A stretch of 29,524 nt of DNA, from positions 1 to 29,524 of the IMG/VR virus record IMGVR_UViG_3300042988_000398; one strand, given 5' to 3'. The notes under the pieces were generated by a model, which did no database searches, was not told where the DNA came from, and was given only the letters and a program-made list of their open reading frames with translations. Shown here piece after piece: positions 89 through 17,875 of the stretch. Numbering within the stretch: the first letter of the stretch is position 1; each line of letters opens with the position of its first letter. The stretch is from a virus. A program made the position numbers and the translations under genes.

Positions 89-3000
89 ATGACAGACATG
101 GGACTCCAAATTAAAATATCCGCCGATGGCAAACAAGCGTCGGCGGAACTTTCTAATCTAAACAATCAAGTCAATAAGCTTGATTCGAATCTAAACAGTT
201 CAAGCGTTTCCGCTAACAAACAATCTGCATCGCTTGCGTCACTAGCACGTAATGCAGCGGCAGCTGCTGCAGCTTATGTAACCGTTACTACTGCACTGGT
301 AGCTGTTAAAGCTGCAGTAGAGGCAAGCGACCGCTTTGCCATGCTGGAGGGCAGGCTAAAGCTTGCAACGTCGAGCGCGCAGCAGTTCACAGCTGTTTAT
401 GGCGAACTATACAGAATCAGCCAGAACACAGCATCCGACCTGGAAGCGAACGTATCGCTCTATAACCGAATGGCGCGCGCTTTTGAAGGCACAGGGCGCA
501 GTGCAAGCGACATGCTAGCCATCGTAAAGGTTATGGCTCAATCGCTCCGTATATCGGGCGCTAGCACGCAAGAAGCACAATCCGCAATCCTTCAGTTCTC
601 GCAAGCGATGGCTTCAGGGAAACTGCAAGGCGAAGAATTCCGTTCGTTGATGGAATCAACGCCAAACCTGATGTATGCCATCGCTAAGGCGGCAGGTATA
701 CCGCGTGAAGAATTCAAGCAGTTGGCGAGCGAGGGAAAGCTAACAGCAAAGGTCATAGCCGACGCAATGGTGCAGATGCGCGAGACGTTTGACCAGCAAG
801 CGAACGCGTTGCCGTCCACCTTTGGCCAAGCCTTCCAGCGTTTACAAACAAGCCTACAGGCGTGGATGGCTGAAGTTGCAAAGGCAAGCGGGCTAGTGAC
901 TGAATTAGCCACTGCGATGAATAGCCTTTCTGGCTTCTTCGACCGCTGGCGCACGACCGGAACTACGTCTTCCATAAAAGAACAGCAAGAACTCGTTAAC
1001 CAACTTGGCGAAAAGCTTGTAACGCTCAAAGCGCGCGGTGCGGGTATTGGCGATGTCAACTACGCACAACGCCAGTTCGATGAAGCCGACACGCAATTGC
1101 AAAACATGATTGCTGCGGAACGTGATGCGCTGAAGGTTACAGAAGAACTCGGGAAAGGATTCGGAGACGTTGGATACAAGATCGAGAACGTTGGAAAGAA
1201 AGCAGAAGACACCATAGCAGCAGTCGCACAAGCCGCGCGCAGTGCTGGCATACCTGAAAGCTTCGCGGTCACGATTGCAAAGCTAGAGTCAGGATTTCAG
1301 CAAAGCGCGGTATCCAATAAAGGCGCGACCGGAGTTATGCAGCTTATGCCGCAATACTTCGGAAAGAAAGGCGACATTAACAACGCAATGGAGAATATCC
1401 GCATAGGCGTTGAGGAACTGGCGCGACTCTATAAGAAGTACGATGGCGACCTCGTTAAGGTCATGGCCGCATACAATGGCGGCGAAGGAAACCTCGCTCG
1501 CTACGGGACCGGCGCTAAGTACGTGCAGGAGTATATCGCGGCATACGACAAAGCCGCGCAGTCGCTAAAGTCGAAGTATCCGAACGGATTGCTTTCGGAG
1601 ATCATGACGCCGAAGCAACAGGCGGAAATGGTTGGCAGTCAAAAAGACTTATTCACCGCACAACTAGAGCGAAACGAAGCAGCTGCTAAAGCGTTCATGG
1701 ATCGAATGAACCAGAACATTGATGGGCAGATCGCACAACAAAAGGCAAAGATACAAGAGTTCCAGAACGCACGAAATGATACCGCTGGCGAACTAACAGG
1801 CGCGAACAAAGTTGCCTATGAGCAGCAAGCGGCAGAGCAGCAAAAGAAACTAGCAGCAGAACTCAATCAGCTTGAGTTGGCGAAGATTGCCAACGAGGAA
1901 CGATATGCACAAGTCAAGCTTGCAAACATTAACGCCATTATCGCGAAGTCGGACCAGTTCAAGCTAACTGAACAGCAACGCCTTGCGCTTGACGGTCAAC
2001 GACTGCAAGCCGAAAGCGCATTGTCTCAGGTATCTTCGCAGCGGCAACAGCTTGAACTCGAAAGCGGGCAACGCGCATCAGACGCGGCAGATCGCATAGC
2101 CAACGCACAACGTGAACAGACCGCTGCAGAGGTTCAGAAAGCAACGGCTATCGCTGAATACTTACAGCAACTAGACGACCAGATTGCAAAGCTACAAGAC
2201 CAGAACAACGTGCTTGGTGACGAAGCTAAGAAGCGCGAGTTGCTTGTAGGTTTAACGAATGAACAGGCTGATGCAGTAGAGCGGGAAATCAGCATACGCG
2301 AAAGCAAGATAAAAACACTGGAAGACGCCAACAAAAAACAGGCAGACGAAGCGAAGTCAGTCAAAGACGACGTATTGCGCATGTCGCAGTACTACCAAGC
2401 TATGACGCGCCAAGCACAGCAAGCAGCGCAAGGAATGGCGGAAGCATTCGGAAAGACAGGCGCGGCGATTGGGCAGGTTATTACCGGATTGGCTCAGTAC
2501 CAAGAGTCGATGTATCAAATCGAACAGCGTAAAAACGCACTGCTAGAAAGCAATTCCAAGAACGGTAACGATCCGGCAAAAGCCGCACAGATCGAACAGC
2601 AAGCCATGATGGAAGGCTTGTCCGCTCAAACGCATCAATACGGCAACCTAACCCAAGCCGCGCAAAGTTTCTTCAAGGAAGGGACCGCAGGCTATAACGC
2701 GATGGCGTCCGCGACCAAGGCGTTCCGCATGATGGAAATGGCGCTGACGCTTTCGAATTACGCGAAGATGGCGGCAGAGGGCATTTCGTACACAGCAACA
2801 GCCATAGGCAATCTGTTCCAAGAGGGGCAGGCAACCGCGACGGTAGCAGTAGCCAATCAAGGTAAAGGAGATCCATACACGGCTTTTGCGCGTATCGCGG
2901 CCATGGCGGCACTCATGGCGGCAATTGGATTCGGCGTCATGGGCGCGAACTCATCTGGCGGCGCACAAGGTGCTGCGGCTAGCGTTACGCCAGTAAACGG

Positions 3001-6000
3001 CGGGACCGTTCTCGGTGATGAAAACGCAAAGAGCGCAAGCCTAGCGAATAGCCTTGAAATACTGAAGAAGAATAGTAGCGCGGACCTTGACTACAGTTCA
3101 AAGATGACGCGCAGCCTTGAGAATATCGAGAACGCTATCGCTGGCGTAACGAATAGCCTACTCATCAATGTCAACGCTCTAACAGCATTACAAGGTCAGT
3201 CCGTTAAGTGGGTTAACAACAACAAAGGTATCTTTGGCGAACCTACTCTGTTCATGAATACGCGGAGCAAGATATCCGACTTCGGAATCGGCACTGCACC
3301 GTGGAATCCGCAATTGCTGTCTGACATTCTGAAGAACGGGCTTGAACTGAAAAGCTACACGGACGTCACGACGACGACAAAATTGTTCGGAATGACGATG
3401 AGTTCCAAGACGAAAACGTACCTTGGAGAAGTTGCGAAAGAAACAGAAAATGCGTTTACGCGGGTTATTCGTAGCCTTGCGGACGCCGTCAAGGAAGGAG
3501 CGAAAGCATTTGGCATTAGTTCAGTCGAGTTCGAAAAGCGCCTTGCAGAGTTCACGGTATCGATTGATCCGGTATCGCTGAAAGGCGAGGATGGCAAGAA
3601 ACTTACCGGCACTGCACTACAGGAAGCCTTGAGCGCGCAGTTTAGCTCCATAGCGGACCGTATGGCACAGGCATTGAACATCGATCAACTACAGAGCTTC
3701 CAGCGTGCTTCTGAGGGTCTTTTCGAAACACTCGTCAGGGTATCTAGCGGAATCAATGAGGCAAACGGAGCGCTTGGCGAACTCAACATCAAGTCTGCAA
3801 GCTACCTGGATGTTGTCAACCGTCAAGCTGAAGACGTTGGCGCCGAGATCGTTCGGCAGTCGATTATCGCCAAGGAAAACGGAACGGCGGTAGGCCAGTT
3901 CTTCGAAGATGTTACCGGTTCTGTTTCCGACATGATTGACACGTATAAGAATCTGGTTGCAATCCGTGACCTGTTCACTGGTATGGGCTTTGATACCGAA
4001 AGCCTCACGCGCGCAATGACAGAAGCAGTCGGCGGCGTGCAGAAGCTACGTGACGCAATGGAATCCTTCAATTCCAACTTCTTCACGGATGGTGAACAAC
4101 TTGGAAACCAACTCGTGACGCTCGGTCGTCAGTTCGGGGAACTCGGTCAGACGCTTCCACAAAGCAAGGACGAATTCCGCGCACTGGTAGAGAGCATTGA
4201 TACCAGTACGGAAGCAGGGCAAAAGCTATTTGCGCGACTTGTCGCACTGTCCGGCGCGTTCGCAGATGCAGCCGACGCAGCCGATGCACTCCAAAAGAAA
4301 TACGAGGATTATACAAACCCGCGTGGGCAGTACACTACGAAGCTTGAGGCGATTATCAAAGACTTCGAATCTATTTTAGATGCGAAGCTCGGACAGATTG
4401 AAGCGACGTACGCCAACAAGGCAGCGCTTGAGAAGCAGCAAGCAAACGCGCCACTACAGGATCAGGTTGACTACTTGACGCAATACAGGAGCGTACGGCA
4501 AAGCGAAATCGAACGTAACTTCGGATTCCTAAATACGACGCTTTCCGAGATACAAAAGTATCAAGACTTGATCGCGCGATGGGAAGGTGTACCAAAAGCG
4601 GCTGCATATGTAGCCTCTTGGAGAACAGCAATGTCTGGCATGCAGGAACAAGCCGACATTCTGCGCGGAGACTTGGCGGCTAAGAAAGCCGAGATTGACA
4701 AGATCAACGCACAGATTCAGTCGTTGCTTGACCAGATGGCGGCTAACAACTCGTCAATAGACGCGGCGGCAACTGCCGAGAAAATCAAGGCACTTGACGC
4801 AGAGAAGAAGCTTATCTTGCGGCAGGAAGGCGAGGTGCTGTTGAGTTCGTTGCGCGACTTCTGGGACCAGATGATGAGCGGCATTGAAGACTTGCAAAAG
4901 TCGATAGCAAGGAAGATCGCAGAGTTGCAAGGTGGTAATGCGATCGACAGGCTCAACCGCAGCACTATGCGCGACTCTAATGCAAACTGGCGTGAGTTCA
5001 AAAAGTCCGGTGCTGAAGATCCGGAGAAAGCCGCTCGCCTGATACAAGACATGATCGACTCGGTTATGTCGGTGTATGAATCCGGAATGAGCAGGATACA
5101 AAAGCAGATCGACCGCCAGACGAACGAAATCAACCGGCAATTAGAAAAGGACATCAATGCGATAAACAGAAGGCGTGACCGTCAGTTATCGCGAGTTGAC
5201 AACCAGGAACAGCGCCTTACGGAAGAAGCTCAAAGGAAAGGCGAGGAAGCCATTAAGCGGATAAACGAACAGCTTGATATCGCGATGGAAAAGCTTGACG
5301 AGAAGCACCTCGCGGAAACGCGTGCGCTACAAGACGAACAGGAAGCAAGGCGCGAAGCAATCCAAAAGACGCATGATGCAGAACTTGAGGCATTGCAGGA
5401 ACAGTTAAACACGGCAAACCAACTCAAAGCTGCTATCGAGCAAATCGCACAATACGCAAAGCAGTTAAAGACTGGTTCGTATTCTTCGCTATCCCCAGAG
5501 GATAAGCTTGCAGAGGCCCAGCGGCAATATCAGGAATTACTAGCAAAGGCACAAGCAGGGGACGCAGACGCGGCCAGCAAGCTTACGGGAAGTGCCGACA
5601 CGCTGTTACAACTGCTACAGCAATACTATGGCAGCAATCCGGCCTATGCTGAGCTATTTGACGCCATTCAAAAGCAACTGGAAGGTCTTGGCGGGCAGAC
5701 GGTCACTGATCCCAACTCTGTGCAATCAAAGATTGATGCTCTGCGCGAAGAACAAGCGAAGGAAATGAAGGAGCTAAGCCGAACGTTTGAGAACGAAAGC
5801 CGAGCGCTTTCAAAACAACAAAGCAAGGAATCAGAAGCATTGCGCGCAACATTCCAAGCTCGCATCGATGCCGTTAATGAGCGCACGAACAAGAACATCG
5901 AGCGCATACAAAGGCAGATGGACGAACAGCGGGATGCTATCAATAAGGCGGCAGACAAGCAGATTAGACAGCTAGAGCGTGAAGCATCAAGAGCAATCAA

Positions 6001-6511
6001 GGATTTGTCAGACCCAGACAAGAACGAAGCTATTAAGGCTTTGCGTGATCGGACCATTAAACGTCTCGAAAGAATGAATGAGTTGCTAGAGGCTGAGAAG
6101 GAAAAGGCAAAGGAGCAGATGAGGCTGTTGATTAACGAGGTTAAAAACCTTGGGATACTTAGTTCGAAGCAGCTTCGACAGTTAAACAAGATGGCTGAGA
6201 ATTGGGGCATTCCAACTGTACCAGCCGCTGCTGCCGGTGGTTACTTCGGTCGCGGCCCTGTTCTAGTTGGAGAGAATGGACCGGAACTTGTTAACTTCTC
6301 AAATCCTGCGCGCATTATAGACAACAACACAACGAACGGCTTGCTTAATGGAAACAGCGACAAAATCGCTAAAGCAATCGAGAATCTAAAGGAAGAGATT
6401 AAAGCGGTAGTTAATACCCAAAGCGCAGCGAATCCGATTATAGTGGATAAGCTGAGTAAGATAGATGAGAAACTAGCAAGCGTCGAGCGTACTGCTAGAT
6501 TGTCCGCATAG
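89..6511 (+). CDS. Tail tape measure protein with embedded lytic transglycosylase domain
   Basis: This 2140-residue protein sets tail length and threads the tail tube. Residues about 80-260 look like the N-terminal domain of phage tape measure proteins (ASDRFAMLEGRLKLAT ... GEEFRSLMESTPNLMYAIAKAAG). Residues about 385-475 form an SLT-type peptidoglycan-cleaving domain: catalytic Glu about 400 in AKLESGF, then GATGVMQLMP and AAYNGGEGN. This probably opens the cell wall at DNA entry. A hydrophobic Ala-rich stretch lies near 870-930. Two highly charged coiled coils lie at about 1670-1795 and 1885-1975. The C-terminal motif GPVLVGENGPELV is common in tape measure proteins. The ATG is preceded by AGG. 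At the usual rule of thumb of about 0.15 nm per residue, the length implies a tail near 300 nm (inference). Confidence 0.95.
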   Translation: MTDMGLQIKISADGKQASAELSNLNNQVNKLDSNLNSSSVSANKQSASLASLARNAAAAAAAYVTVTTALVAVKAAVEASDRFAMLEGRLKLATSSAQQFTAVYGELYRISQNTASDLEANVSLYNRMARAFEGTGRSASDMLAIVKVMAQSLRISGASTQEAQSAILQFSQAMASGKLQGEEFRSLMESTPNLMYAIAKAAGIPREEFKQLASEGKLTAKVIADAMVQMRETFDQQANALPSTFGQAFQRLQTSLQAWMAEVAKASGLVTELATAMNSLSGFFDRWRTTGTTSSIKEQQELVNQLGEKLVTLKARGAGIGDVNYAQRQFDEADTQLQNMIAAERDALKVTEELGKGFGDVGYKIENVGKKAEDTIAAVAQAARSAGIPESFAVTIAKLESGFQQSAVSNKGATGVMQLMPQYFGKKGDINNAMENIRIGVEELARLYKKYDGDLVKVMAAYNGGEGNLARYGTGAKYVQEYIAAYDKAAQSLKSKYPNGLLSEIMTPKQQAEMVGSQKDLFTAQLERNEAAAKAFMDRMNQNIDGQIAQQKAKIQEFQNARNDTAGELTGANKVAYEQQAAEQQKKLAAELNQLELAKIANEERYAQVKLANINAIIAKSDQFKLTEQQRLALDGQRLQAESALSQVSSQRQQLELESGQRASDAADRIANAQREQTAAEVQKATAIAEYLQQLDDQIAKLQDQNNVLGDEAKKRELLVGLTNEQADAVEREISIRESKIKTLEDANKKQADEAKSVKDDVLRMSQYYQAMTRQAQQAAQGMAEAFGKTGAAIGQVITGLAQYQESMYQIEQRKNALLESNSKNGNDPAKAAQIEQQAMMEGLSAQTHQYGNLTQAAQSFFKEGTAGYNAMASATKAFRMMEMALTLSNYAKMAAEGISYTATAIGNLFQEGQATATVAVANQGKGDPYTAFARIAAMAALMAAIGFGVMGANSSGGAQGAAASVTPVNGGTVLGDENAKSASLANSLEILKKNSSADLDYSSKMTRSLENIENAIAGVTNSLLINVNALTALQGQSVKWVNNNKGIFGEPTLFMNTRSKISDFGIGTAPWNPQLLSDILKNGLELKSYTDVTTTTKLFGMTMSSKTKTYLGEVAKETENAFTRVIRSLADAVKEGAKAFGISSVEFEKRLAEFTVSIDPVSLKGEDGKKLTGTALQEALSAQFSSIADRMAQALNIDQLQSFQRASEGLFETLVRVSSGINEANGALGELNIKSASYLDVVNRQAEDVGAEIVRQSIIAKENGTAVGQFFEDVTGSVSDMIDTYKNLVAIRDLFTGMGFDTESLTRAMTEAVGGVQKLRDAMESFNSNFFTDGEQLGNQLVTLGRQFGELGQTLPQSKDEFRALVESIDTSTEAGQKLFARLVALSGAFADAADAADALQKKYEDYTNPRGQYTTKLEAIIKDFESILDAKLGQIEATYANKAALEKQQANAPLQDQVDYLTQYRSVRQSEIERNFGFLNTTLSEIQKYQDLIARWEGVPKAAAYVASWRTAMSGMQEQADILRGDLAAKKAEIDKINAQIQSLLDQMAANNSSIDAAATAEKIKALDAEKKLILRQEGEVLLSSLRDFWDQMMSGIEDLQKSIARKIAELQGGNAIDRLNRSTMRDSNANWREFKKSGAEDPEKAARLIQDMIDSVMSVYESGMSRIQKQIDRQTNEINRQLEKDINAINRRRDRQLSRVDNQEQRLTEEAQRKGEEAIKRINEQLDIAMEKLDEKHLAETRALQDEQEARREAIQKTHDAELEALQEQLNTANQLKAAIEQIAQYAKQLKTGSYSSLSPEDKLAEAQRQYQELLAKAQAGDADAASKLTGSADTLLQLLQQYYGSNPAYAELFDAIQKQLEGLGGQTVTDPNSVQSKIDALREEQAKEMKELSRTFENESRALSKQQSKESEALRATFQARIDAVNERTNKNIERIQRQMDEQRDAINKAADKQIRQLEREASRAIKDLSDPDKNEAIKALRDRTIKRLERMNELLEAEKEKAKEQMRLLINEVKNLGILSSKQLRQLNKMAENWGIPTVPAAAAGGYFGRGPVLVGENGPELVNFSNPARIIDNNTTNGLLNGNSDKIAKAIENLKEEIKAVVNTQSAANPIIVDKLSKIDEKLASVERTARLSA

Positions 6512-6551: not shown

Positions 6552-6986
6552 ATGACGGCATTCACTAATTATATGGAAAATAAGGTAGTAGATCATTTGT
6601 TTAGAACTACTACATATACTCCAAGTACAAGTTATATCGCGCTGTTCACTGCAGCCCCGTCCGATACTGGCGTAGGGACCGAAGTAACTGGCGGATCGTA
6701 TGCACGCGTATCGGTATCAAAAGGCGATGCGTACTGGAATGGGACACACGGAACAACTACCGGGAACTCTAGCGGAACAAGCGGAACTACTTCCAATGCT
6801 TCCAACATTTCATTTCCTGCGCCTACAGCCAATTGGGGCACAGTTACACACTTTGGAATTTTTGATGCGTTATCAGGAGGGAACTTATTGATATGGAGCG
6901 CTTTAACAACTCCTAAGACTGTTAATAATGGCGATCCTGCGCCAATGTTCCAGGCCGGAGCGCTTCAGATCACGTTAGATAACTAA
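6552..6986 (+). CDS. Small conserved phage structural protein (minor tail type)
   Basis: A 144-residue protein starting MTAFTNYMENKVVDHLF, with the motif YIALFTAAPSDTGVGTEVTGG then YARV. This belongs to a recurrent family of small phage virion proteins found beside tail genes. The beginning is predicted helical and the rest beta-rich, with a Thr/Ser/Gly-rich stretch (GTSGTTSNASN). An AGAGG ribosome site lies 8 bp before the ATG. It sits between the tape measure gene and the beta-helix/hub gene, so a role in the tail tip or as a decoration protein is likely but not shown by the sequence. No catalytic residues were recognised. Confidence 0.75.
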   Translation: MTAFTNYMENKVVDHLFRTTTYTPSTSYIALFTAAPSDTGVGTEVTGGSYARVSVSKGDAYWNGTHGTTTGNSSGTSGTTSNASNISFPAPTANWGTVTHFGIFDALSGGNLLIWSALTTPKTVNNGDPAPMFQAGALQITLDN

Positions 6987-6992
6987 TACCAA

Positions 6993-9900
6993 GTGACTAC
7001 CTATTACGCATCACCAACAGGCAGCGACGGTAATAACGGTCTATCGACTGGTTCGCCGAAAACGCTAAACGGCGGGTATGCGGTGTGCAATCCTGGGGAT
7101 ACTCTGAGGCTCCTCCCAGGTACGTATCAGCAAAAGTTCACTATGAACCGTTCAGGGACGAACGGAAGCCCGATCACAGTCACTTCGCACGACACAAACA
7201 ATAAGGCCATTTTTACCGGAGGCGGTACGAATGTCCTTGCGACGAATCTTGAAGACCAGATCATCTATATTTCAGGAGACTGGAACGTACTAGACGCAGT
7301 AGAAATCAAGGATTTCGTATATTACTCCGCAACAGGGTGGAGCGGACAGCCTGCATGGGGCGGAAAGGGAATAACCATTGAGGCTACCGCTGACGACAAT
7401 GTAATTCGCAACTGCGTAATACACAACGTAGGTGCGTTTTTTATTGTCGCGTGCGGCAATCGTCCTATTATTGAGTACAACACGCTTTATGATCTTGGCC
7501 TAGGTATCTATTACTACATCGGAATATATCCACCGAACGTTCCAACGTGGGGATCTGGAATAAGCCTGCAGACAAGGTATGACTTGTCGCAAACGACATG
7601 GAGTACAAACAAGAACAATGGCGGGACGATCCGTTACAATTCACTCAAGACTGTCTACGGTGAAGGCATCATCGCCATGCGCCAGACAGGAGCTACGAAC
7701 CGCATTCAGATCTACGGAAACACCGTGCAGGATTGCATGGCTCCGCATCTGTACATCACGAACAGCGATAACGTCGACATGTTCGACAATATCTGTTCGG
7801 CCCCGAATTATGCGACCCTGTTCGGCACAGTACGTGGCCCGGGCCGTGGTCTGTCGATCGGCAACGAGTACCCCAGCACACAGAACGCTGACGGGTGCCG
7901 ATACCTAAACGTCTACAATAACCTAGTTTACGGCACGGCCAACCCTTTCACCTATTTTATTCAGTCTGGTACAGGCGGTTTCGCACAGCTTGCCGACACG
8001 GTTATTGCATTCAACCACTTCCTTGATGGGAAGCAGGGAGGCGGCGGCTACGGCAACACGGCGACAACGGTCAACTTCACGACCAGCAACATCTCCAACG
8101 TCCAGTTCCGGAACAACGTCGTCACGCAAACGAATGCCAGCTACTCGATCGCGGCCTTCAATACGACCACCGGCATCACGTTCAGCCACAACCGGTGGGG
8201 CAAGACCCCCGGCTACACGCTGGGCACGGGCGACTCTGTTGGCGACCCTCAGATTGCGCTAGCCGGATCAACCAACCCTATTACGAAAGAATATTTCCGG
8301 CCACTGAGTGGATCTGTCCTAATCGGTGCTGGTGTCGCGGTGTCTGGCATTACGACCGACTACGAGGGAACTACGCGACCAAATCCTCCCACTATTGGAG
8401 GACTGGAAGGTGGGACATCTGACTACGAACCAACCGGCTTGCCTTGGACCGTAGGCAGCATCGGATCACCGCCAACAACTGGCACAGACGAATACAGCCC
8501 AAGCCTTGACACATACAGCCAAGTCGGGTATGGCTTGGATATGTGGGACGTTACCGATGCGGCAGGTTATACATACCAAATACTTACCGGTGACTTCTCA
8601 TTTACGTATCGTGTTGTTTCATCGACTGGCGGGGGTGCGTATTCTAAGGCTGGATCTGATGTACGCGTATCGCTTGCAGCTAACTCGCGACACATAACGA
8701 TAAATCAAATCCAGTCCGGACTGATACAACGGCTTATCCGCACAACTGATGGCGGAACAACTGGATACGCTAACGGTGCGACAGGGCCAAAATACCAGCG
8801 TGTAGTACGTAGCGGTAACACAATCACAACCGCTTATTCCACTGATGGCGTTACATGGACAACGCTATCAACTGATGACGTAACCGGCTGGGGAACTCAG
8901 TTATACGTTGGTCGCATTGCGTGTGCGAATGATGCTTCCGCATCGGTGTCTGTTATTTATGACAACGTCTCTCTTTTAATTCCAGTTTACTTAACGGCAA
9001 CAGCAAGCGCCACAGCCTCTGCATCGGGCGTAATAACTACGCAGGTATACTTCGACGGAATAGCAGATGTTGGCCCATATGCCTCTGCTATTCTTACAAG
9101 TCTTTCTGTACTAGTATCAACAAGACCGCCTACAGCGTCAGAAAACGACACAACTATTGGCGATGTGCCATGGACTAATACATCGAATGCTTATTCGTCT
9201 AATAGTGCCTACGCATACGCATACAACAATAATGCAACATCAAGACAAACTAATTACCTAAAGGTAAACGGGTTCGGTTTTGCGATTCCTTATGACACTC
9301 TTATATCAGGCGTATCGGTATCGATTGAAAGAAATAAAAACGGTTCATATTCAGTTCAGGACTATAGTATAAAGTTAGCTATAACATCTGCTCCAACGTT
9401 CTCGTCATCTGATTATGCAAAGCCTGATGTATGGAGTAGTCCGCTTGATCAAACAGTGGTGTATGGTGGTCCGTCAGACACATGGGGCGAGACTCTAACT
9501 CCGACTATCGTAAATAGCGCTGATTTTGGCGTAGCAATATCAGCAAATTGCGCCGCATACGGGTACCCTAGAGTAGACGCAGTCACTGTAACCGTGTATT
9601 ACGTGTTGCAGGTATTGCTAGATACTAATGCGTCGTCTGTTGCTTCTGTATCGGCTAACTTATCTACAACCATATTGCTTGCCGGTGTTCCTTCTTCTAT
9701 TGCTTCCAGTAGCGCAAGCCTAACGACTTCCATAACGTTTGGTTGTTCCGCTGCTCTAGATATAAGTGTTGCAGCAAGCCTTACAAGCTCTCCGACGTTT
9801 ATTGACGGAATTGCAATATCTACTGTTAGCTCAAGCTCTAATTTAACGACATCGATCAGATTCGCAAGCGTTGCTAGCGGAGTTGTATCGTCATCTGCGA

Positions 9901-11465
9901 TTCTTTACCTGCCCATAACACCATCAACTGATTTTGCAGTAGGCATATTCCTGGCTGAAGTGCAAGCGTATGACCCTACGACAAACGCGGTTGTCACACA
10001 TCGGTTTTCGTCAGGACAAGGATACGACAACGCAGGTACGTTCTATCTACCACGGGTAGAGCAGCCAGCAACGTACCGCCGTGAAGCCGGCGGTTCGACT
10101 GTAGGCGGAAGGCAACAATCATCGGTTGGCGAGCTTACGCTAATTAACAGCGATGGCGCGCTATCGTACATGGCAGACGACTTTTACGACGGCCGTACGC
10201 TAACCATCAAGTGGGGCAACAGGAACGCCGCATACGTCGATTTTACGACAGTTCTCGTGGCTACCATTGACTCGATAAGCTTTGAACGGCAACGCGTCTC
10301 TGTGCGGATAAAAGACCGCTCTAACACGCTAGACAAACCATTTTCGTCAGTTAAGTACGCTGGCGATAACATCCTACCGCTAGGCTTAGAAGGAACTCCT
10401 GACAACCTGAAAGGGCAAAACAAGCCGCGCATCTTCGGGCGCGTTGCTCTCATGCAGCCGCAACTTGTAAATACGTCGCATCTTATCTACCAAGTTACGG
10501 ATAAGGCGATAACAGGAAACGTGCTAAACGTTTTCGATGCAGGAGCGCTTTTATTCAGGCAAACTCCTGATTACACAGATATCAATACGTTACAGGCTGC
10601 AGGGCAGGCCCCATCGGCCGGATATTACAAGTGTTTCTCATCATCTGCAGGAACGTATTTCAGACTTGGCTCGTCGCCTTACGGAACAATTTCATGCTCT
10701 GTCGTAGAAGATTGGGATTACTTAGACTGTTCGGCGTCTGGGATCATTAAAAAGATACTCACTGAACTTGGATTTGTTTCTGGTGCAGATTGGGTCGAGT
10801 CGGACTTTACCGCGCTTAATCAGGTTTGCGCTGGATCACTTGGCGTAATTGTTAACGCTGAAGAAACGACTTCAAGCATTATAGATCGTATCTGCGCAAC
10901 AATCGGCGCGTATTGGGGATTTGACAATCTAAACAGATTTAGGATCGCTCGCATTGACGCACCAAGCGGAACGCCGGTAGCCACATTTACTGAAGATAAT
11001 ACCGTATCGCTCGAAAAGCGTGCAGACTCGGAATATCCTGCATGGCAAATAACCATGGGGGCTGATGTCAACTATGCGGTACAGGATAAATCATCACTCG
11101 CAGGAGTCGTAAGTGTTGAACGCTCTGCATGGTTTTCAGAAGCATCCAGAAACCAAGTAAGCGCAAGTAGTTCAATAAAGACTTCTAGATTGTTAGCCGA
11201 GGATCGCAAGTACGAACAATCGTTGTGGTCGAGTATTTCTCAAGCCGATGCTGAAGCAGACCGCAGGCTTTCTGTGTTCGGTGTAAGACGCGACTCTGTA
11301 ACTCTAACAGTCGCTGACCCTCTAAGTTACTATAATTCCGTAGATATCGGAAGCGTAGTATCCGTGACTAATTCGCGCATCGGATATGATGGTAAACTAT
11401 TCACAGTAACAGGCGTTTATATAGACTATCAACGTGGCCTGCTTGACTTGATTTTATACGGGTAA
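6993..11465 (+). CDS. Beta-helix adsorption module fused to a tail-hub domain
   Basis: A 1490-residue multidomain tail protein. Residues about 1-450 form a right-handed parallel beta-helix (opening YYASPTGSDGNNG, PGDTLRLLPGTY, many NNG/N-rich turns), as in phage receptor-binding or polysaccharide-degrading tailspikes. Residues about 465-665 resemble a LamG/concanavalin-like sandwich (DFSFTYRV, Y-x-R, DGVTWTTL). Residues about 715-870 form another beta domain (NYLKVNGFGFAIPYDTLISGVSVSIER ... TVTVYYV). Residues about 872-980 are Ser/Ala/Thr-rich repeats (SASLTTSI, SNLTTSI). Residues about 980-1490 have the look of a siphovirus baseplate-hub protein (ITMGADVNY, DPLSYYNSVDIGSVVSVTNS). The start is GTG 6 bp after the previous stop with no strong ribosome site, suggesting coupled translation. 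Host recognition is inferred; no hydrolase site was identified. Confidence 0.85.
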   Translation: MTTYYASPTGSDGNNGLSTGSPKTLNGGYAVCNPGDTLRLLPGTYQQKFTMNRSGTNGSPITVTSHDTNNKAIFTGGGTNVLATNLEDQIIYISGDWNVLDAVEIKDFVYYSATGWSGQPAWGGKGITIEATADDNVIRNCVIHNVGAFFIVACGNRPIIEYNTLYDLGLGIYYYIGIYPPNVPTWGSGISLQTRYDLSQTTWSTNKNNGGTIRYNSLKTVYGEGIIAMRQTGATNRIQIYGNTVQDCMAPHLYITNSDNVDMFDNICSAPNYATLFGTVRGPGRGLSIGNEYPSTQNADGCRYLNVYNNLVYGTANPFTYFIQSGTGGFAQLADTVIAFNHFLDGKQGGGGYGNTATTVNFTTSNISNVQFRNNVVTQTNASYSIAAFNTTTGITFSHNRWGKTPGYTLGTGDSVGDPQIALAGSTNPITKEYFRPLSGSVLIGAGVAVSGITTDYEGTTRPNPPTIGGLEGGTSDYEPTGLPWTVGSIGSPPTTGTDEYSPSLDTYSQVGYGLDMWDVTDAAGYTYQILTGDFSFTYRVVSSTGGGAYSKAGSDVRVSLAANSRHITINQIQSGLIQRLIRTTDGGTTGYANGATGPKYQRVVRSGNTITTAYSTDGVTWTTLSTDDVTGWGTQLYVGRIACANDASASVSVIYDNVSLLIPVYLTATASATASASGVITTQVYFDGIADVGPYASAILTSLSVLVSTRPPTASENDTTIGDVPWTNTSNAYSSNSAYAYAYNNNATSRQTNYLKVNGFGFAIPYDTLISGVSVSIERNKNGSYSVQDYSIKLAITSAPTFSSSDYAKPDVWSSPLDQTVVYGGPSDTWGETLTPTIVNSADFGVAISANCAAYGYPRVDAVTVTVYYVLQVLLDTNASSVASVSANLSTTILLAGVPSSIASSSASLTTSITFGCSAALDISVAASLTSSPTFIDGIAISTVSSSSNLTTSIRFASVASGVVSSSAILYLPITPSTDFAVGIFLAEVQAYDPTTNAVVTHRFSSGQGYDNAGTFYLPRVEQPATYRREAGGSTVGGRQQSSVGELTLINSDGALSYMADDFYDGRTLTIKWGNRNAAYVDFTTVLVATIDSISFERQRVSVRIKDRSNTLDKPFSSVKYAGDNILPLGLEGTPDNLKGQNKPRIFGRVALMQPQLVNTSHLIYQVTDKAITGNVLNVFDAGALLFRQTPDYTDINTLQAAGQAPSAGYYKCFSSSAGTYFRLGSSPYGTISCSVVEDWDYLDCSASGIIKKILTELGFVSGADWVESDFTALNQVCAGSLGVIVNAEETTSSIIDRICATIGAYWGFDNLNRFRIARIDAPSGTPVATFTEDNTVSLEKRADSEYPAWQITMGADVNYAVQDKSSLAGVVSVERSAWFSEASRNQVSASSSIKTSRLLAEDRKYEQSLWSSISQADAEADRRLSVFGVRRDSVTLTVADPLSYYNSVDIGSVVSVTNSRIGYDGKLFTVTGVYIDYQRGLLDLILYG

Positions 11466-11469: not shown

Positions 11470-12219
11470 ATGCTAGTACTAGGCGCATACAATCAAGCAG
11501 ACACAGCATCATTATCTGGCGGGACTTGGAACGCATCGTATCCACTCGCTAATGTAAAGACGCGATACCTGTACCAGCAAGCACGTAGCACGACCAATAC
11601 CGCAGTCGTGATAGTGGACCTTGGAACGCCAATGAATATAGGATGTTGCGGAGTAATCGCAACAAACGCAACAACTAGTACATATCTTACTATTGATGCG
11701 TCCGACACTTTAGCGTTTACTATTGTTCGTTATACATCCGGTGCTATCCAGGGGTACGGAGGAACAGACATTGTAAAAAGCTTTACTGAGCAAGCATTCA
11801 GGTATTGGAAATTTACAGTAACCGACGCGAACCTGTCTTATATTTCCATAGGGCGCATTTTCGTTGGGCGTGCGATTCGCTTTGCAACAAACGTTGAGTA
11901 TGGCTGCTCATTTGGAGTCGAGTCAACGACAGTAGTAACGCCAGCTTTAAGCGGAACAGAATACTTCGAAGAACACGACAACAGGCGCGTTACGTCGGTT
12001 AAGTTCTCATGGCTTACTGATTCTGAAGCGTTATCGACTATGCTGCCCTTGCTAAGAAGCCACGATATTAGCAAAGAGGTTTACCTTGTATTTAATGACG
12101 AAGACACAATATACCGTGCGACACGTAATTACCTTGCAAGGCTAAAACAGATTGATGCTCTATCTAATCCGTATGTTGGGGTTAACTCTGTCGGTCTTCA
12201 GTTGATAGAGATTATCTGA
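11470..12219 (+). CDS. Tail-tip/hub-associated protein
   Basis: A 249-residue protein starting MLVLGAYNQADTASLSGGTW. The N-terminal half, with AVVIVDLGTPMNIGCCGVIATNATTS and FRYWKFTVTDANLSYISIGRIFVG, resembles a discoidin/galactose-binding beta sandwich. The C-terminal half (RRVTSVKFSWLTDSEALSTMLPLLRSH) looks like a conserved siphovirus tail-tip protein that accompanies the hub. It begins 4 bp after the hub gene ends and stops just before the next start, consistent with stoichiometric assembly in the tail tip. The exact role is not known from sequence. Confidence 0.75.
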   Translation: MLVLGAYNQADTASLSGGTWNASYPLANVKTRYLYQQARSTTNTAVVIVDLGTPMNIGCCGVIATNATTSTYLTIDASDTLAFTIVRYTSGAIQGYGGTDIVKSFTEQAFRYWKFTVTDANLSYISIGRIFVGRAIRFATNVEYGCSFGVESTTVVTPALSGTEYFEEHDNRRVTSVKFSWLTDSEALSTMLPLLRSHDISKEVYLVFNDEDTIYRATRNYLARLKQIDALSNPYVGVNSVGLQLIEII

Positions 12220-12220: not shown

Positions 12221-13627
12221 ATGGCGCTATATCGGCAAAACTCTACCGGGTTTCTATGCGAGTTCGCGTCTAATCCTGGCGCAGGGTATACCGCAGTGTC
12301 TTCCATGCCTGTAGACACGATAACCAATAAGGTTAACTGGTACAGGGCGTTAGATACGTACGGTCAAACTAGTTCTTGGCATCCTTCATTACAAAGCACA
12401 GACTCATATCCGGACGTACCACTTCCACCGGGGCTAAGTGGTAGCGGCGTCAACATTGCAGCATCAAGGTACCAGACGTTTGAAGAATCAGGGCTTCCTC
12501 CGCTAAGCCTTGCTAGTGTTAGCGTTTTGCAGCAATCCGGCGGGTATCACGGGTCGAAGTGTATAAAGCTTACCGCAACTCTTGCAAATGGAACGATATG
12601 GTTTGGAACTTCATCAACTGCGTATAACGTAAAGCTTACTCCAAATAAAAGGTGGATACTTTCACTATACTGCACTACGCCAACAGCAATACAACGTTCG
12701 TTTTCTGTATTGCTTCAAACCGCCACAACGCAATATAGCGTTACTTTTACAACATCAGGGATAGCTAACACATGGCAGAGGGTATCTACTCCTATTGACT
12801 TGCGAGGAGACGCGGCATCTGGTGGAACAATCGGGATTAAGATAATCCCAACAGGCGCCGACTTGCTTGTTGACGCAATAATGCTAGAAGAGAGAATAGG
12901 GGACGGATCAGAACCAAGTGCCTATTCTGGTGAATCAGGCGCGGTAGATGGGGATCAGGTACTTGACGCTACTCTATCCGTAGATAAGTTAGCAGCGGGC
13001 ACGATTGGCGCGCAGACGATAAACCTTAATGGTTCCGGGTCAATCATTCAATCCAGCAACTACGCAGTTGGGTCAGCAGGATGGCAGATTGAAGGCGATG
13101 GAAGTGCGGAGTTCGCTAATGTCACAGTACGTGGAACTCTGAACGCAGCGGATCTAAAAGCCGGAACTATTTTAGCTGCAAGGTACGGAAACGATACAAT
13201 AGGAACAGGTCCTATCGTTAACGAGTCAATTTCGTATGTACGAGGTTCGTATACAACACAAACTATTTCTTCTACTTCTGGTACTGTAAGCCTTCAGTTG
13301 TCATTAACTGTACCCGCAGCAACATACCGTGGCGGTATAGCTATTTTTGCAAGCATGGCCTCAAATACAGCTTTTGCTTTAGATACTGGTCAGACAGCAT
13401 GGGTCGGTGTTGCAATAGTTAAGTCTGGATCTTCTCTTAGCTTTGGCAATACGATGGGTAAAGACATCACAGCATTTGCATTTAAGCCGACGGCTATTGC
13501 ATTCGCATACGACTCAGCGCCAGGAACTGGCGCAATAACATATGACATCTATGCTGGACAATATAATCAGCCAGGGACGACATACTCGTTTAAAACATCA
13601 ATTCTTATTCTTGAGTTGAAGCGATGA
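12221..13627 (+). CDS. Tail fibre/tip protein with carbohydrate-binding-like domain
   Basis: A 468-residue protein. Residues about 80-230 resemble a carbohydrate-binding module (YQTFEESGLPPLSLASVSV ... LLVDAIMLEE). A short region with VLDATLSVDKLAAGTIGAQTINLNG follows, then GWQIEGDGSAEFANVTVRGTLNA at about 285-310. This last motif is typical of phage tail-tip proteins at the point where a fibre or tip leaves the baseplate. The C-terminal part is beta-rich and probably receptor-facing. The ATG lies 1 bp after the preceding stop; its own stop overlaps the next start as ATGA (13624-13627). Confidence 0.75.
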   Translation: MALYRQNSTGFLCEFASNPGAGYTAVSSMPVDTITNKVNWYRALDTYGQTSSWHPSLQSTDSYPDVPLPPGLSGSGVNIAASRYQTFEESGLPPLSLASVSVLQQSGGYHGSKCIKLTATLANGTIWFGTSSTAYNVKLTPNKRWILSLYCTTPTAIQRSFSVLLQTATTQYSVTFTTSGIANTWQRVSTPIDLRGDAASGGTIGIKIIPTGADLLVDAIMLEERIGDGSEPSAYSGESGAVDGDQVLDATLSVDKLAAGTIGAQTINLNGSGSIIQSSNYAVGSAGWQIEGDGSAEFANVTVRGTLNAADLKAGTILAARYGNDTIGTGPIVNESISYVRGSYTTQTISSTSGTVSLQLSLTVPAATYRGGIAIFASMASNTAFALDTGQTAWVGVAIVKSGSSLSFGNTMGKDITAFAFKPTAIAFAYDSAPGTGAITYDIYAGQYNQPGTTYSFKTSILILELKR

Positions 13628-14420: not shown

Positions 14421-15170
14421 ATGGCCAAGCAACGCACGCGGGCGCAGAAACAAGATGATAACTGCGAGGTTGAATTCCAGTACCCACCATGCGGCAAGCA
14501 GCTTAAGCCGCTAAACAGGGCTCAGGGAAACCATCTAGCGGCGCTTAAATCCCAAACGTGTGTGTTTTCTACCGGACCTGCAGGGACCGGAAAGACTTTC
14601 CTTACAGCGGCCTATGCTGCCCAACAATTGCGCGACCATGAGATTAGCCATATTGTAGTCACAAGACCAACAGTCGAAGCAGGTTCGCGCGGACTTGGGT
14701 ATCTACCTGGAGACCTTCACGAGAAATATGCCGTTTGGATTGCGCCATTCCTGAAAGGATTCAACTATATTCTAGGGAAAAGCTATTACGAATACCTGTA
14801 CAAGATAGAGCGCATTATTCCTTGTCCGCTTCAGTACTGCCAGGGTTTGTCTTTCGGCGGAGAAGACGACGCCACGATTGTTCTAGCCGATGAATTCGAA
14901 AACGCCAGCTTGCAGGAACTAAAGATGCTGCTTACGCGAGTTGGGGATAACACCAAGATATTCCTAGGCGGCGATACCCAGCAAATCATGACGACAAACA
15001 GCGGGTTTAGTGACGCAATCGGATTGCTGCGTAACGTTCCAAGCGTATCGCATATCCAGTACACACGTGACGATATCGTTCGTTCTAACTTCGTGCGCCA
15101 TGTACTCGACGCGTTCGAGGGAGTTAGTTACGCAGACCGCCGGCTTGGAGGAGTGTTCGCGCCTACTTAA
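14421..15170 (+). CDS. phoH: PhoH-like ATPase
   Basis: A 249-residue P-loop NTPase of the PhoH family. Walker A is GPAGTGKT (residues 52-59). A PhoH-type block TRPTVEAGSRGLGYLPGDLHEK follows, then Walker B with TIVLADEFENASLQELKMLLTRVG, and the sensor-like FLGGDTQQI. An AGGA ribosome site precedes the ATG. PhoH proteins are common in tailed phages and probably act in RNA or phosphate-stress metabolism, but the phage role is unsettled. This is the last + strand gene. Its stop overlaps the integrase stop on the other strand, leaving no space for a terminator between the convergent genes. Confidence 0.92.
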   Translation: MAKQRTRAQKQDDNCEVEFQYPPCGKQLKPLNRAQGNHLAALKSQTCVFSTGPAGTGKTFLTAAYAAQQLRDHEISHIVVTRPTVEAGSRGLGYLPGDLHEKYAVWIAPFLKGFNYILGKSYYEYLYKIERIIPCPLQYCQGLSFGGEDDATIVLADEFENASLQELKMLLTRVGDNTKIFLGGDTQQIMTTNSGFSDAIGLLRNVPSVSHIQYTRDDIVRSNFVRHVLDAFEGVSYADRRLGGVFAPT

Positions 15171-16134
15171 GTTTCTTCGCAATGTTCTCCGCGCTTTCTC
15201 GATAGTAGATCATGAGCGAGCGCGGATCGCGATGTCCGACCATTCGCGCAAGCTCTAGCACGTCGAGTTGCTTTGATAGTCTCGTAAGTGCTAGTGCGCG
15301 GGAGTCGTGAAAGTGCAGGCCGGTAACGCCAGCGGCTTGCATAGCGCGCCGAAACGTCGTATCCCTGTTGTTCTCGCTTGTCGTGAACACGCGCGCGGCA
15401 TCAAGTCCGCGCAGCTTGCTAATCAACTCGACCGCTCGGTTGGTCAGAGGAACGTCGCGCGGATCTCCGTTTTTAGTTCTCGGCAAGTGCGCGACTCTGC
15501 GCGCCAGGTCCACATGCCGCCATTCCAGCGACAGGATTTCGCCAGATCTCATAGCCGTCTCGGCTGACAACATGAACGCGATGGCAATCTGTTGCTTGCA
15601 CGTCTCGACGGGTTCATCCTCGTCATAACCCAGCGCGATGCAGATTCGCTCAATCTCGTCATCGGTCGGCAGTCGTGTACGCGGGCGAGGTTGCTTCGGC
15701 TTGCGCACGTCCTTAACCGGATTGATCGCAACCAGGCGCAACTCCCGTCGTGCGTACTCGAAAACAGCCGACAGCAGGCATAAGTAGCGTAGTGTAGACG
15801 CCGGGCCGACATTGAACGCATCGCGCAACTGTGACACGATTTCGGGCGTTACAGAGGCAACCGTCATAGCGGCTATTGGATGTTTCGCAAACAGCGCGAG
15901 CGTTTGCGACTCCCAGCGCGAGGTGATCTTTTTGCTACCGACGTCTCGGTAGTAGCCGTCAAACAATGATTGCATCGTCTTGCCGGTCGGCAGTGAGCCG
16001 GTTTCGATGCTTCGCTCAGTCTCTAGCGCCCATGCGCTAGCCTCAGACTTGAGGCGAAATGATGCCGACCTACGGATGCCTAGCTTAAAGACATCCGCTC
16101 GCCATGTCGTTCCCCTCTTGCGTATCGTTGCCAC
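15163..16134 (-). CDS. int: Tyrosine recombinase (phage integrase)
   Basis: A site-specific recombinase of 323 residues. The N-terminal opening ATIRKRGTTWRADVFKLGIRRSASF matches the arm/core-binding region of phage integrases. The C-terminal catalytic domain shows Arg in AMRSGEILSLEWRHVDL, Lys in TKNGD, HxxR in FHDSRAL, His in GHRD and the nucleophile Tyr in MIYYRES. The frame stays open to a GTG at 16251, but the GTG at 16134 has AGGCGGG 4-5 bp upstream and gives the usual MATIRKRG-type start, so I chose it. The region is GC-richer than the flanks. It implies a temperate or formerly temperate phage, but no repressor is visible here. Confidence 0.88.
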   Translation of the reverse strand: MATIRKRGTTWRADVFKLGIRRSASFRLKSEASAWALETERSIETGSLPTGKTMQSLFDGYYRDVGSKKITSRWESQTLALFAKHPIAAMTVASVTPEIVSQLRDAFNVGPASTLRYLCLLSAVFEYARRELRLVAINPVKDVRKPKQPRPRTRLPTDDEIERICIALGYDEDEPVETCKQQIAIAFMLSAETAMRSGEILSLEWRHVDLARRVAHLPRTKNGDPRDVPLTNRAVELISKLRGLDAARVFTTSENNRDTTFRRAMQAAGVTGLHFHDSRALALTRLSKQLDVLELARMVGHRDPRSLMIYYRESAENIAKKLK

Positions 16135-16313
16135 TGTCCCGCCTGGCGTAATTTCTGGCGTGAAAGTGTGGATCGTTGCGGACGATTGCGCAAGTCTACG
16201 GAATGCCGTTAGCCTGTTAGCGACTGATCCTATTGCGGTTTGAGCGTTCACGGAGTCATCCGTACAATACCGGAATGCTATTAGATTTCATCCTTTAGGA
16301 ACCGACAAAGCGC
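16135..16313. promoter_or_regulatory. Non-coding gap before int; candidate attP/control region
   Basis: This 179-bp gap separates the likely integrase start from the stop of the next upstream small gene. It contains CTGGCGTAA (16143-16151) and CTGGCGTGA (16155-16163), matching a second pair at 16338-16359. It also holds a 5-bp inverted repeat ACGGA/TCCGT around 16250-16263. An attachment site or integrase control region is an inference from these repeats next to int. No host-matching core can be tested here. Confidence 0.35.
16143..16163 (+). repeat. CTGGCGTRA motif pair (candidate integrase arm sites)
   Basis: Two copies, CTGGCGTAA at 16143-16151 and CTGGCGTGA at 16155-16163, are 12 bp apart start to start, close to one helical turn. 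They lie just upstream of the chosen integrase start. If the longer GTG start at 16251 were used they would be inside the gene. Confidence 0.45.
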
Positions 16314-16586
16314 CTACTCCGCGCTCTGCGCGTCGTCCTGGCGTGATGCTGGCGTGATCGTCTCCCGTATTTTTTCTGCAACGTATGATGCCGGTTCAAT
16401 ATCTCCAATTGACTCAACGATTGCCGCGCATTCCTCGCGGGCATTCCTGTCCGCAGCTTCGATGTCCGGTTGCATCGCGTCGATTGCGGCTTGTGCTTGA
16501 GGCGTGAAGCATGTCCAATCGTGATTATTATCGTCGTATCGGCTAGCCTTACATATCGCCCGCGCGACTCGCTCAAGTCTGTCCAC
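16314..16586 (-). CDS. Small phage protein, paralogue 4 of a tandem family
   Basis: A 90-residue protein starting at GTG with GGAG about 8 bp upstream. It opens MDRLERVARAICKASRYDDNN. The centre carries the family motif NAREECAAIVESIG at about 48-61, followed by YVAEKIRETI. The motif recurs in the two upstream neighbours. The role is unknown. The GTG overlaps the end of the previous gene by 14 bp, so translation is probably coupled. Its 3' end contains the CTGGCGTGAT repeats. Confidence 0.7.
   Translation of the reverse strand: MDRLERVARAICKASRYDDNNHDWTCFTPQAQAAIDAMQPDIEAADRNAREECAAIVESIGDIEPASYVAEKIRETITPASRQDDAQSAE
16338..16359 (+). repeat. Tandem CTGGCGTGAT pair
   Basis: CTGGCGTGAT occurs at 16338-16347 and again at 16349-16358, 11 bp apart start to start. 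The pair lies in the 3' end of the neighbouring small gene, where it also encodes its C-terminal ITPASRQDDAQ. The same core occurs at 16143-16163, about 195 bp away. Confidence 0.45.
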
Positions 16587-16830
16587 TTATAGTCTCCATG
16601 ATTGCCCGTTCGCATCGTTTCGCTGAGTGGACTCCAGTCATCCACTCTTGCCCGGTGTTTTCATAGGACTCCGCAATTTTGTCGCAAATCGCCGCGCATT
16701 CCTCGCGGGCCGCTCTGTTGCAGGCGTTCCATGCGTTGTGTGCAGCGTTTATCTGTTCCTCGTCCATCGCTTCGCGCCATGTGTGGTCGTCTCGAGGGAT
16801 TATTGAGTCGAGCCATTCATCAAACGTCAT
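16573..16830 (-). CDS. Small phage protein, paralogue 3 of a tandem family
   Basis: An 85-residue protein starting MTFDEWLDSIIPRDDHTWREAMDEEQINAAHNAWNACNRAAREECAAICDKIAESYENT. The start ATG overlaps the stop of the upstream gene as ATGA (16827-16830) and has GGAG upstream; the frame is open further upstream, but that part overlaps the previous gene. It shares the MTFDEW/F opening and the AAREECAAI core with its neighbours. The function is unknown; the acidic, helical make-up is typical of small phage early proteins. Confidence 0.72.
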   Translation of the reverse strand: MTFDEWLDSIIPRDDHTWREAMDEEQINAAHNAWNACNRAAREECAAICDKIAESYENTGQEWMTGVHSAKRCERAIMETISGQT

Positions 16831-17051
16831 TTCATCGTCTCCCGAATTTCGTCTGCGATTCCTGCAACCACACCGGAAACGTCCATTTGCGCGTGCTCCC
16901 ACGATTCCGCAATCCTCGCGCATTCCTCGCGCGCCGCTCGGTCCTGGTTCATTATTTCGTGGTACAACTTCTCGATACCGTCATACCGAGCATCACAAGT
17001 AGCCCTCCATGCGGCATCCTTTAACTTTTCCGTGAATTCATCGAATGTCAT
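16827..17051 (-). CDS. Small phage protein, paralogue 2 of a tandem family
   Basis: A 74-residue protein, MTFDEFTEKLKDAAWRATCDARYDGIEKLYHEIM then NQDRAAREECARIAESWEH. AGGAG lies 7 bp before the ATG. It shares the MTFDEF opening, the DRAAREECA core and the ending IRETM with its neighbours, which marks a local duplication. The function is unknown. The stop overlaps the next start by 4 bp. Confidence 0.75.
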   Translation of the reverse strand: MTFDEFTEKLKDAAWRATCDARYDGIEKLYHEIMNQDRAAREECARIAESWEHAQMDVSGVVAGIADEIRETMK

Positions 17052-17084
17052 TGCATTTCTCCTGTTGGGTTGGCAAGTCCTGGC

Positions 17085-17333
17085 TTAAATCCCGATTGAC
17101 TCGATTGCGAGTCTCGCAGCCAGCTTCAGAATTTCTTCCTTGCATTCGCGTATCACAAGCCGTTCAGCCTGTGCTACATACTCGGCTCGCCTGACCGCGT
17201 CTGCTGAATTGTCGCAGGCATGGCCCCATCGCAAGTGTTTAGATTCATTGTGATAATCAGTAGCTCGCAATATCTCGGCTGCGTCTGATACTGCATTGCC
17301 CGCCTTTTTCTTGAATTCATCGAACAGAGTCAT
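17085..17333 (-). CDS. Small phage protein, divergent paralogue 1
   Basis: An 82-residue protein, MTLFDEFKKKAGNAVSDAAEILRATDYHNESKHL ... AERLVIRECKEEILKLAARLAIESIGI. The MTLFDEF opening and the IRECKEEI core resemble the three downstream genes but weakly. A GGGGAAGG ribosome site precedes the ATG. It starts only 15 bp after the last tRNA-like element of the array, so an array transcript could also serve as its mRNA leader. The function is unknown. Confidence 0.72.
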   Translation of the reverse strand: MTLFDEFKKKAGNAVSDAAEILRATDYHNESKHLRWGHACDNSADAVRRAEYVAQAERLVIRECKEEILKLAARLAIESIGI

Positions 17334-17348
17334 TGCCTTCCCCGTTTG

Positions 17349-17422
17349 TGGTGGACCCGTGCCGGAATCTCACCGGCTCGACGTATCAGTGCGCCGCAAA
17401 CTCCAGGTATCGTCGCTGGTCC
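17349..17422 (-). ncRNA. tRNA-like element A (74 nt, encoded CCA)
   Basis: Read on the - strand, the element starts GGACCAG and ends CGGGTCC-ACCA, a 7-bp acceptor-like stem with one mismatch. A T-arm-like hairpin follows the pattern GCCGG, 7-nt loop TGAGATT, CCGGC. An inner hairpin is possible, CGGCG with CGTCG and an 8-nt loop CACTGATA. The length equals that of a normal tRNA, but a proper D-stem, a 7-nt anticodon loop and the TTCRANY T-loop are missing. It is preceded by TTAC. It may be a degenerate tRNA or a tRNA mimic. Confidence 0.5.
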
Positions 17423-17426
17423 GTAA

Positions 17427-17479
17427 TGGTGGAGCGGTGCAGGCTCGAACTGCACGCGGCCCAAATCTGCCGCCGCTCC
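17427..17479 (-). ncRNA. tRNA-like element B (53 nt, no room for a D-arm)
   Basis: On the - strand it runs from GGAGCGG to CCGCTCC-ACCA with a perfect 7-bp acceptor-like stem. A good T-arm (TGCAG, loop TTCGAGC, CTGCA) abuts the acceptor 3' strand exactly as in tRNA. Only 18 nt lie between the acceptor 5' strand and the T-arm, enough for one small hairpin (CGGC, 8-nt loop, GCCG). It is a 'minihelix' acceptor-T half plus one arm. The leader is TTTAC; the trailing CCA is followed directly by the TTAC leader of element A. Confidence 0.6.
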
Positions 17480-17484
17480 GTAAA

Positions 17485-17557
17485 TGGTGGCCGCCGAGTC
17501 GGCCCGTAGCAAGCTACGCGGGTGCGCGATGCAATCTCGGTTTCATCACGTCCGATT
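17485..17557 (-). ncRNA. Array unit X ending in ACCA, structure unclear
   Basis: The 73 nt between elements C and B end in GGCGGCC-ACCA, immediately followed by the TTTAC leader of B, so the 3' end follows the array pattern. A GTAGC/GCTAC hairpin with a very short loop and a GGCCG/CGGCC hairpin are visible. No 5' strand pairs with the 3' end as an acceptor, and there is no T-loop motif. It may be a decayed unit or a structured spacer. Confidence 0.35.
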
Positions 17558-17773: not shown

Positions 17774-17779
17774 GTAAAA

Positions 17780-17834: not shown

Positions 17835-17844
17835 GTAAATCAGT

Positions 17845-17875
17845 GCCGGTTACGTTATCCGGCGACCTTTCGGCC
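17845..17875 (-). ncRNA. Two hairpins in the spacer between elements E and D
   Basis: On the - strand GGCC-GAAA-GGTC (GNRA tetraloop, 17864-17875) is followed at once by GCCGG, 9-nt loop, CCGGC (17845-17863). They occupy most of the spacer before the CTGATTTAC leader of D. They are probably part of the array transcript; no function is inferred. Confidence 0.4.

Follow-up and report, generated by a model that had tools for sequence, protein, structure and literature searches.

The locus described here raises the question whether a beta-helix adhesin can form one chain with the tail hub of a siphovirus and, if so, by which route it came there. The window, i.e. the whole stretch analysed, is a 29.5 kb metagenomic virus record from IMG/VR (IMGVR_UViG_3300042988_000398), and the gene in question, located at 6993..11465 on the plus strand, was taken in an original prediction for a receptor-binding beta-helix joined to the tail hub, together with two beta sandwiches and Ser/Thr/Ala repeats, in one continuous gene. 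Continuity was borne out, since the check for a frame error revealed an open frame of 1490 codons with a GTG start and no internal stop. Based on the results below, it appears probable that the product is a single-chain adhesin-hub made by recombination, which would hold three tethered helices beside the tail tip.

The C-terminal part of the chain—residues 982-1490, encoded at 9936..11462 (plus strand)—is a solid assignment as a tail hub, as judged from a predicted structure. Residues 986-1481 match phrog_8917 (E 4.2e-78), a family with its function unlabelled, and the model of residues 870-1490, folded with 16 other alignment rows, has a pLDDT mostly of 70-90, being weaker at model residues 477-541 and having the preceding linker unstructured. 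The top Foldseek match of the model was the T5 protein pb3 (E 2.9e-17), and VIA-align placed it on residues 18-710 of pb3 (7zqp_b) over 451 residues with a Z-score of 17.4 at 4.4 Å, the alignment running from model residue 113 (residue 982 of the protein) to the last one. The hubs of GTA, Mu, pyocin, T4 (gp27), VgrG and lambda came next with Z-scores of ~13 to 17 and, the best structural rows being nearly tied, the claim is restricted to a hub of this superfold; among the hubs listed, it was the T5-type (T5, DT57C) that aligned over ~450 residues. The hub domains hdI to hdIV are thus all recognizable in the predicted structure, and, as is usual for a siphophage hub, the gene follows that of the tape measure within the tail module, with one small gene between them. 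The structural similarity to hub proteins, the lack of which would have spoken against the original prediction, was therefore found, and the boundary that it placed at residue 980 agrees with the computed one at ~982.

Concerning the relatives of this hub, 29 other records were surveyed, covering 22 distinct IMG/VR contigs (Caulobacter phage Sansa included) and seven further records, i.e. EBPR siphovirus 2, Azospirillum phage Cd, Microcystis phage yong1 and plasmids of Halomonas, Skermanella, Rhizobium and Pseudomonas juntendi; many of these records are near-duplicates of one another, and Microcystis phage Me-ZS1 as well as three Azospirillum plasmids were left out. No helix is attached to the hub in any of the 29, in which the hub is usually a stand-alone protein, as had been supposed, with stand-alone hubs that are 50-53% identical to that of the window. 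The stretch preceding the hub comprises ~62 residues in the sibling group, 146 residues in L021, 396 residues of repeats in both EBPR siphovirus 2 (gp72) and L009, and 0 to 88 residues in the others; the hub of Sansa (gp038), which belongs to the same family and adjoins the tape measure, has no extension and, unlike in the window, the repeats of EBPR siphovirus 2 are not accompanied by a helix. Two scans of bacterial genomes found no relatives of the hub. It should be mentioned that the hub on the P. juntendi plasmid (L049:2611-4863, 750 residues) carries extra sequence inside the hub itself, i.e. at another gain site of the family. The contig L022 (4621-10623) reads as a tape measure-hub fusion of 2000 residues; it was rejected as a natural precedent, because in its relatives L010 and L011 a stop overlaps the start of the hub at the site where L022 shows an extended run of A, so that this fusion is probably a one-base difference or error.

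The relatives of the N-terminal part lead to a different kind of virus. A search of viral contigs with residues 1-479 returned five contigs (L031-L035), and a helix-profile search returned the same five only; in each of them the matching region opens a large protein, to which 661 to 680 residues of the window protein align at 61-74% identity. The contig L031 is podovirus-like, encoding a P22-type coat protein (E 8.7e-42), a Gp80-like protein (E 2.2e-14) and a head-closure protein Hc3 (phrog_578, E 5.8e-48), the closure protein being gp10-like. At its C-terminal end, the L031 helix protein matches phrog_12985 (E 1.7e-30) and shows a weak match to the adaptor Ad3. The C-terminal family scan was done for this one of the five; L032 and L034 align with L031 throughout, and L035 is cut before the protein end. 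The family phrog_12985 carries no function label and is called an adaptor here because its stand-alone members, 234-236 residues long, match Ad3 and precede the gp10-like gene; such members occur in EBPR podovirus 1, phage DSL-LC05 (annotated as 'tail adaptor') and Rhodoferax phage P26218. The podoviral large proteins (L031:5600-8503, L032:6001-8907 and L034:6001-8922) would thus be head-to-tail adaptors preceded by an N-terminal module of ~660 residues, consisting of the beta-helix and a DUF1349-like part. They share with the window protein this module, a repeat linker and a virion ring protein at the C-terminus, but differ in the anchor, a P22 gp4-like adaptor there and a hub here. Both anchors are normally separate proteins and, judging by homology, the same extension has been added to both. 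The original interpretation may therefore be kept as far as a hub of the stand-alone type covalently joined to an adhesin-like N-terminus is concerned, but is not supported for the helix as a trimeric spike, as the nearest relatives found sit on podoviral adaptors and not on separate spikes. In addition, the helix starts at residue 3 of the fused protein, and no P22-type tailspike head-binding family was found before it in Pfam at E 0.1. L031 also contains, before its Gp80-like gene, a second adhesin-like gene (3385-5133; 582 residues) with a match to a lipase-like PHROG (E 7.1e-20).

As to the beta-helix-like domain itself, residues 1 to ~473 (6993..8411, plus strand), the window protein reaches no Pfam helix model, and it is the relatives L031, L032 and L034 that match PF13229 (Beta_helix) with E 3.9e-7 to 1.4e-6. 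The sole PDB match is the N-cap likeness to the pectate lyase Pel9A (1ru4; E 2.2e-6, as profile E 2.6e-7), and a DUF1349-like region also matches beside a 'pectate lyase' on a Halocatena plasmid. Together with the separately encoded 468-residue tip fibre, this makes it a possibility worth considering, albeit a rather doubtful one, that the helix is mainly a polysaccharide-degrading enzyme clearing capsule or slime, the receptor being bound by another tip protein. The Pel9A profile was, however, aligned only at positions 3-118 (~115 residues), i.e. over the N-cap with no catalytic site covered, and such an enzyme would be compatible with the adhesin-hub rather than exclusive of it.

Between the helix and the hub, the chain contains two further domains and two stretches of repeats. 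The DUF1349-like domain (residues 486-665; 8448..8987, plus strand) matches PF07081 weakly at residues 508-660 (E 0.002, under the curated cut-off) and is 40-42% identical to the same position in L031, L032 and L034; a search with it found no phage record. The first S/T/A-rich repeats, recognized by eye (residues 666-705; 8988..9107), are followed by the second domain (residues 706-874; 9108..9614), a putative sandwich according to the original prediction, and by the S/T/A-rich repeats with a 20-residue period (residues 873-985; 9609..9947), all on the plus strand. A search of viral contigs with residues 480-971 found no relative, and the best phage relatives of residues 706-874, sharing 37% (E 4e-8) and 32% (E 6e-8) identity, come from two Manatee Spring podoviruses, where they lie in the N-terminal part of 'tail tubular protein A' of 652 and 753 residues with a match to phrog_394 at the C-terminus. 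In these two viruses (L039:3345-5303 and L040:3360-5621), tail tubular protein A has an N-terminal extension of 420-520 residues that includes this relative, and the adaptor of phage DEV is described (PMC10925440) as bearing an outward-facing lectin-binding insertion; additions to adaptor rings thus may recur. The sandwich fold of the two domains is putative, the model of residues 1-985, based on a four-row alignment, having a mean pLDDT of 33.5 and not being used. The repeats, in contrast, turned out as predicted: the self-alignment of residues 656-985, comprising both repeat stretches, scored 78 at the 20-residue period, a value reached by none of 1000 shuffles (best shuffle 77), and the S+T+A content is 50% in the repeat stretch vs 30% overall.

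The fixed number of adhesin copies expected from a hub presupposes that the chain stays intact and that the hub has no start of its own. It is improbable that the one chain works as two, with cleavage in the repeats or an internal hub start releasing the helix or lowering its copy number. The repeats are indeed of low complexity and modelled as unstructured, the siblings produce the hub alone, and GTG and TTG codons precede the hub part; however, there is no in-frame ATG from residue 518 to 1059, and the alternative codons have no Shine-Dalgarno-like sequence, although this applies likewise to the start of the fused gene itself.

The borders of an exchange are visible in the DNA. From position 7002 (base 10 of the gene) to 8320, the window is 82.6% identical in DNA to L031; in blocks of 60 codons the identity is 73-88% up to ~codon 480 and 39-49% beyond, and it breaks off sharply at the start codon on one side and near codon 475 on the other. 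Within the first 442 alignment columns, 160 of the 198 changed codons are synonymous. The helix is the recently exchanged unit and, given the low block identity after ~codon 480, the DUF1349-like domain is therefore an older relative. The Gp80-like gene lies outside the exchange, since its product is 60% identical to those of the sibling siphoviruses and 27-29% to the podoviral copies. Third-position GC, amounting to 0.62 in the window helix and 0.64 in the podoviral one vs 0.40 in the Gp80 gene and 0.34-0.47 in the rest of the fused gene, suggests transfer from the podoviral side, although the tape measure gene has 0.54. Moreover, codons 61-300 appear to have been exchanged as an allele, because here L031 and the window are 74-88% identical, against 51-64% for L031 and the podoviral L032; for this part of the helix, two strongly divergent alleles occur in podoviral contigs that are close elsewhere. 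Direct repeats of at least 40 bases were not found at the insertion borders at the DNA level. An artificial joint, with a podoviral and a siphoviral contig wrongly assembled into one, is highly improbable: the record is metagenomic and the viral contig searches found no second contig with the same helix-hub fusion, but the helix differs by 17% from that of L031, mostly by synonymous changes, the DUF1349-like part shows the much lower identity given above, residues 706-874 resemble neither parent, and the frame is maintained across all the borders.

What lies between the Gp80-like gene and the hub gene varies among the sibling siphoviruses. In L005 this slot holds a diversity-generating retroelement (3620-6434), also found in L004, L006, L014 and L018, with a 357-residue protein matching the FGE-type, C-type-lectin-like domain (E 2.7e-5), a reverse transcriptase (E 4.2e-16) and a template/variable repeat pair, in which 19 of the 21 mismatches are at template adenines. 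A reverse transcriptase is present in these five of the nine sibling contigs, and the element looks active: between L004 and L005 there are 10 differences in 4086 bases, all ten being in the variable repeat at template adenines, while L006 and L005 differ at 28 positions, of which the variable repeat accounts for 23, with 20 of the 23 at template adenines. Instead of the retroelement, the slots of L016 and L019 contain an open reading frame of 519 or 604 residues without a Pfam match, and no repeat pair was found there. Not every member of the hub family has the Gp80 flank, since neither gp76 of EBPR siphovirus 2 nor the 141-residue gene of L021 matches Gp80 in Pfam. Because the retroelement-diversified gene adjoins the hub gene, the slot is probably an adsorption locus, and the window helix sits inside it. 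That the N-terminus is located inside the tail, or exposed only at ejection like a tape measure, can hardly be believed: hdI is a tube domain in T5 (PMC10038345) and L022 reads as a tape measure-hub fusion, but the latter is probably the error mentioned above, some 980 beta-rich residues would hardly fit the tube, and the sibling slots carry adhesin-like genes.

The following course of events may thus be proposed for the adhesin-hub. A beta-helix adhesin or depolymerase of the type found on the adaptor of some podoviruses would have entered the slot between the Gp80-like and hub genes and been joined in frame to the hub N-terminus, with the DUF1349-like domain, the 20-residue repeats and the second domain as connecting parts. 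If the hub behaves as T5 pb3 does, a trimer of it would seal the tail tube; each tail would then have three tethered helices beside its tip, and these might bind a surface glycan or cleave it and so draw the tip towards the envelope, where the 468-residue tip fibre may perform the irreversible step. The fusion is supported by the open frame, which has in-frame homology on both sides, and display outside the tail is inferred from a helix that is shared, exchanged and located in the slot. There are, on the other hand, several points that weigh against this proposal: the fusion is present in a single record and known from sequence alone, the helix call depends on the family matches of the relatives, the N-terminal model was of no use, the N-cap likeness to Pel9A leaves room for the role of an enzyme, and in T5 hdI lines the tube (PMC10038345), by which analogy the N-terminus of the hub could point inwards.

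With regard to known systems, T5 pb3 (7zqp, 7zhj) is likewise a single-chain hub with hdI to hdIV; in T5, however, the central fibre is added after hdIV (PMC10038345), whereas the window protein stops at hdIV and is extended at its N-terminus. Hubs with appended antireceptors are an established theme according to PMC13243795, which describes siphoviral hubs of this kind, with putative antireceptors, in LSH1 and Jersey; the N-terminal addition in Jersey is small and of unclear placement, whereas LSH1 has small C-terminal hub domains and its beta-helix protein gp34 is separate. A hub with an appended domain is thus already known, and it is the N-terminal beta-helix on a siphoviral hub that seems to be the new variant. 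No report of such a helix on a siphoviral hub or on an adaptor was found in titles and abstract openings with thin coverage of subscription journals, which is weak evidence of novelty. Tailspikes of the P22 type are common to podo-, sipho- and myophages, their beta-helix receptor-binding part having moved between tail types; they are, however, separate proteins with an N-terminal anchor, while in the window the helix precedes its anchor, which is a ring protein.

It can tentatively be put forward, with somewhat less confidence than the adhesin-hub itself, that the helix, its DUF1349-like partner and the repeat linker form an adhesin cassette indifferent to its anchor, working N-terminally on core rings of differing symmetry, which by analogy would be 12-fold for the adaptor in podoviruses and 3-fold for the hub in the siphovirus. 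If so, the helix need not depend on a spike trimer, one in-frame recombination would move adhesins between tail types, and N-terminal display on core rings would be a general alternative to the N-anchored tailspikes. The locus offers a naturally occurring example of the same adhesin-like module borne by two distinct core rings of the virion, and the limits of the exchange can still be read in the DNA; this points to transfers of such adhesins between virus particles of very dissimilar build. The slot before the hub would be an adsorption locus able to accommodate a protein diversified by a retroelement, a gene of its own or a helix fused to the hub, and both the trimer requirement of the helix and the position of the N-terminus of a siphoviral hub become testable.

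As to its surroundings, the fused gene belongs to the siphoviral tail module that occupies the left part of the window on the plus strand and encodes, in this order, the tape measure protein, the Gp80-like protein, the 1490-residue protein, a 249-residue protein, the tip fibre and a DUF4376 protein. The tape measure protein (89..6511; 2140 residues; PF20155, E 7.3e-55) contains a transglycosylase domain (PF01464 SLT, E 3.1e-20), and the module is therefore that of a long-tailed phage. The Gp80-like protein (6552..6986; 144 residues; PF23140, E 2.3e-46), forming the constant left flank of the slot, is related to a fibril protein of phage GP4 (chain 8jou_a, E 4.7e-13), and the GP4 protein 8JOU_g is described in PMC13243795 as a fibril linking an adhesin with the tail nozzle collar. 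The 249-residue protein (11470..12219; phrog_8610, E 1.3e-26) is possibly a distal tail protein; its gene follows the hub gene in at least 16 relative loci and is always hub-adjacent in the relatives, and in the L005 relative a galactose-binding-like domain was matched under the cut-off (E 2.9e-5). The tail-tip fibre protein (12221..13627; 468 residues; PF09327, E 8.2e-6), encoded apart from the fused gene, is a candidate central fibre. A reverse transcriptase gene is located downstream of the hub in the phage-like plasmid of Halomonas (L046:10268-11326), and the region 14421-28054 of the window encodes PhoH, integrase, DNA polymerase beta clamp, ThyX, MazG, ribonucleotide reductase and helicase.

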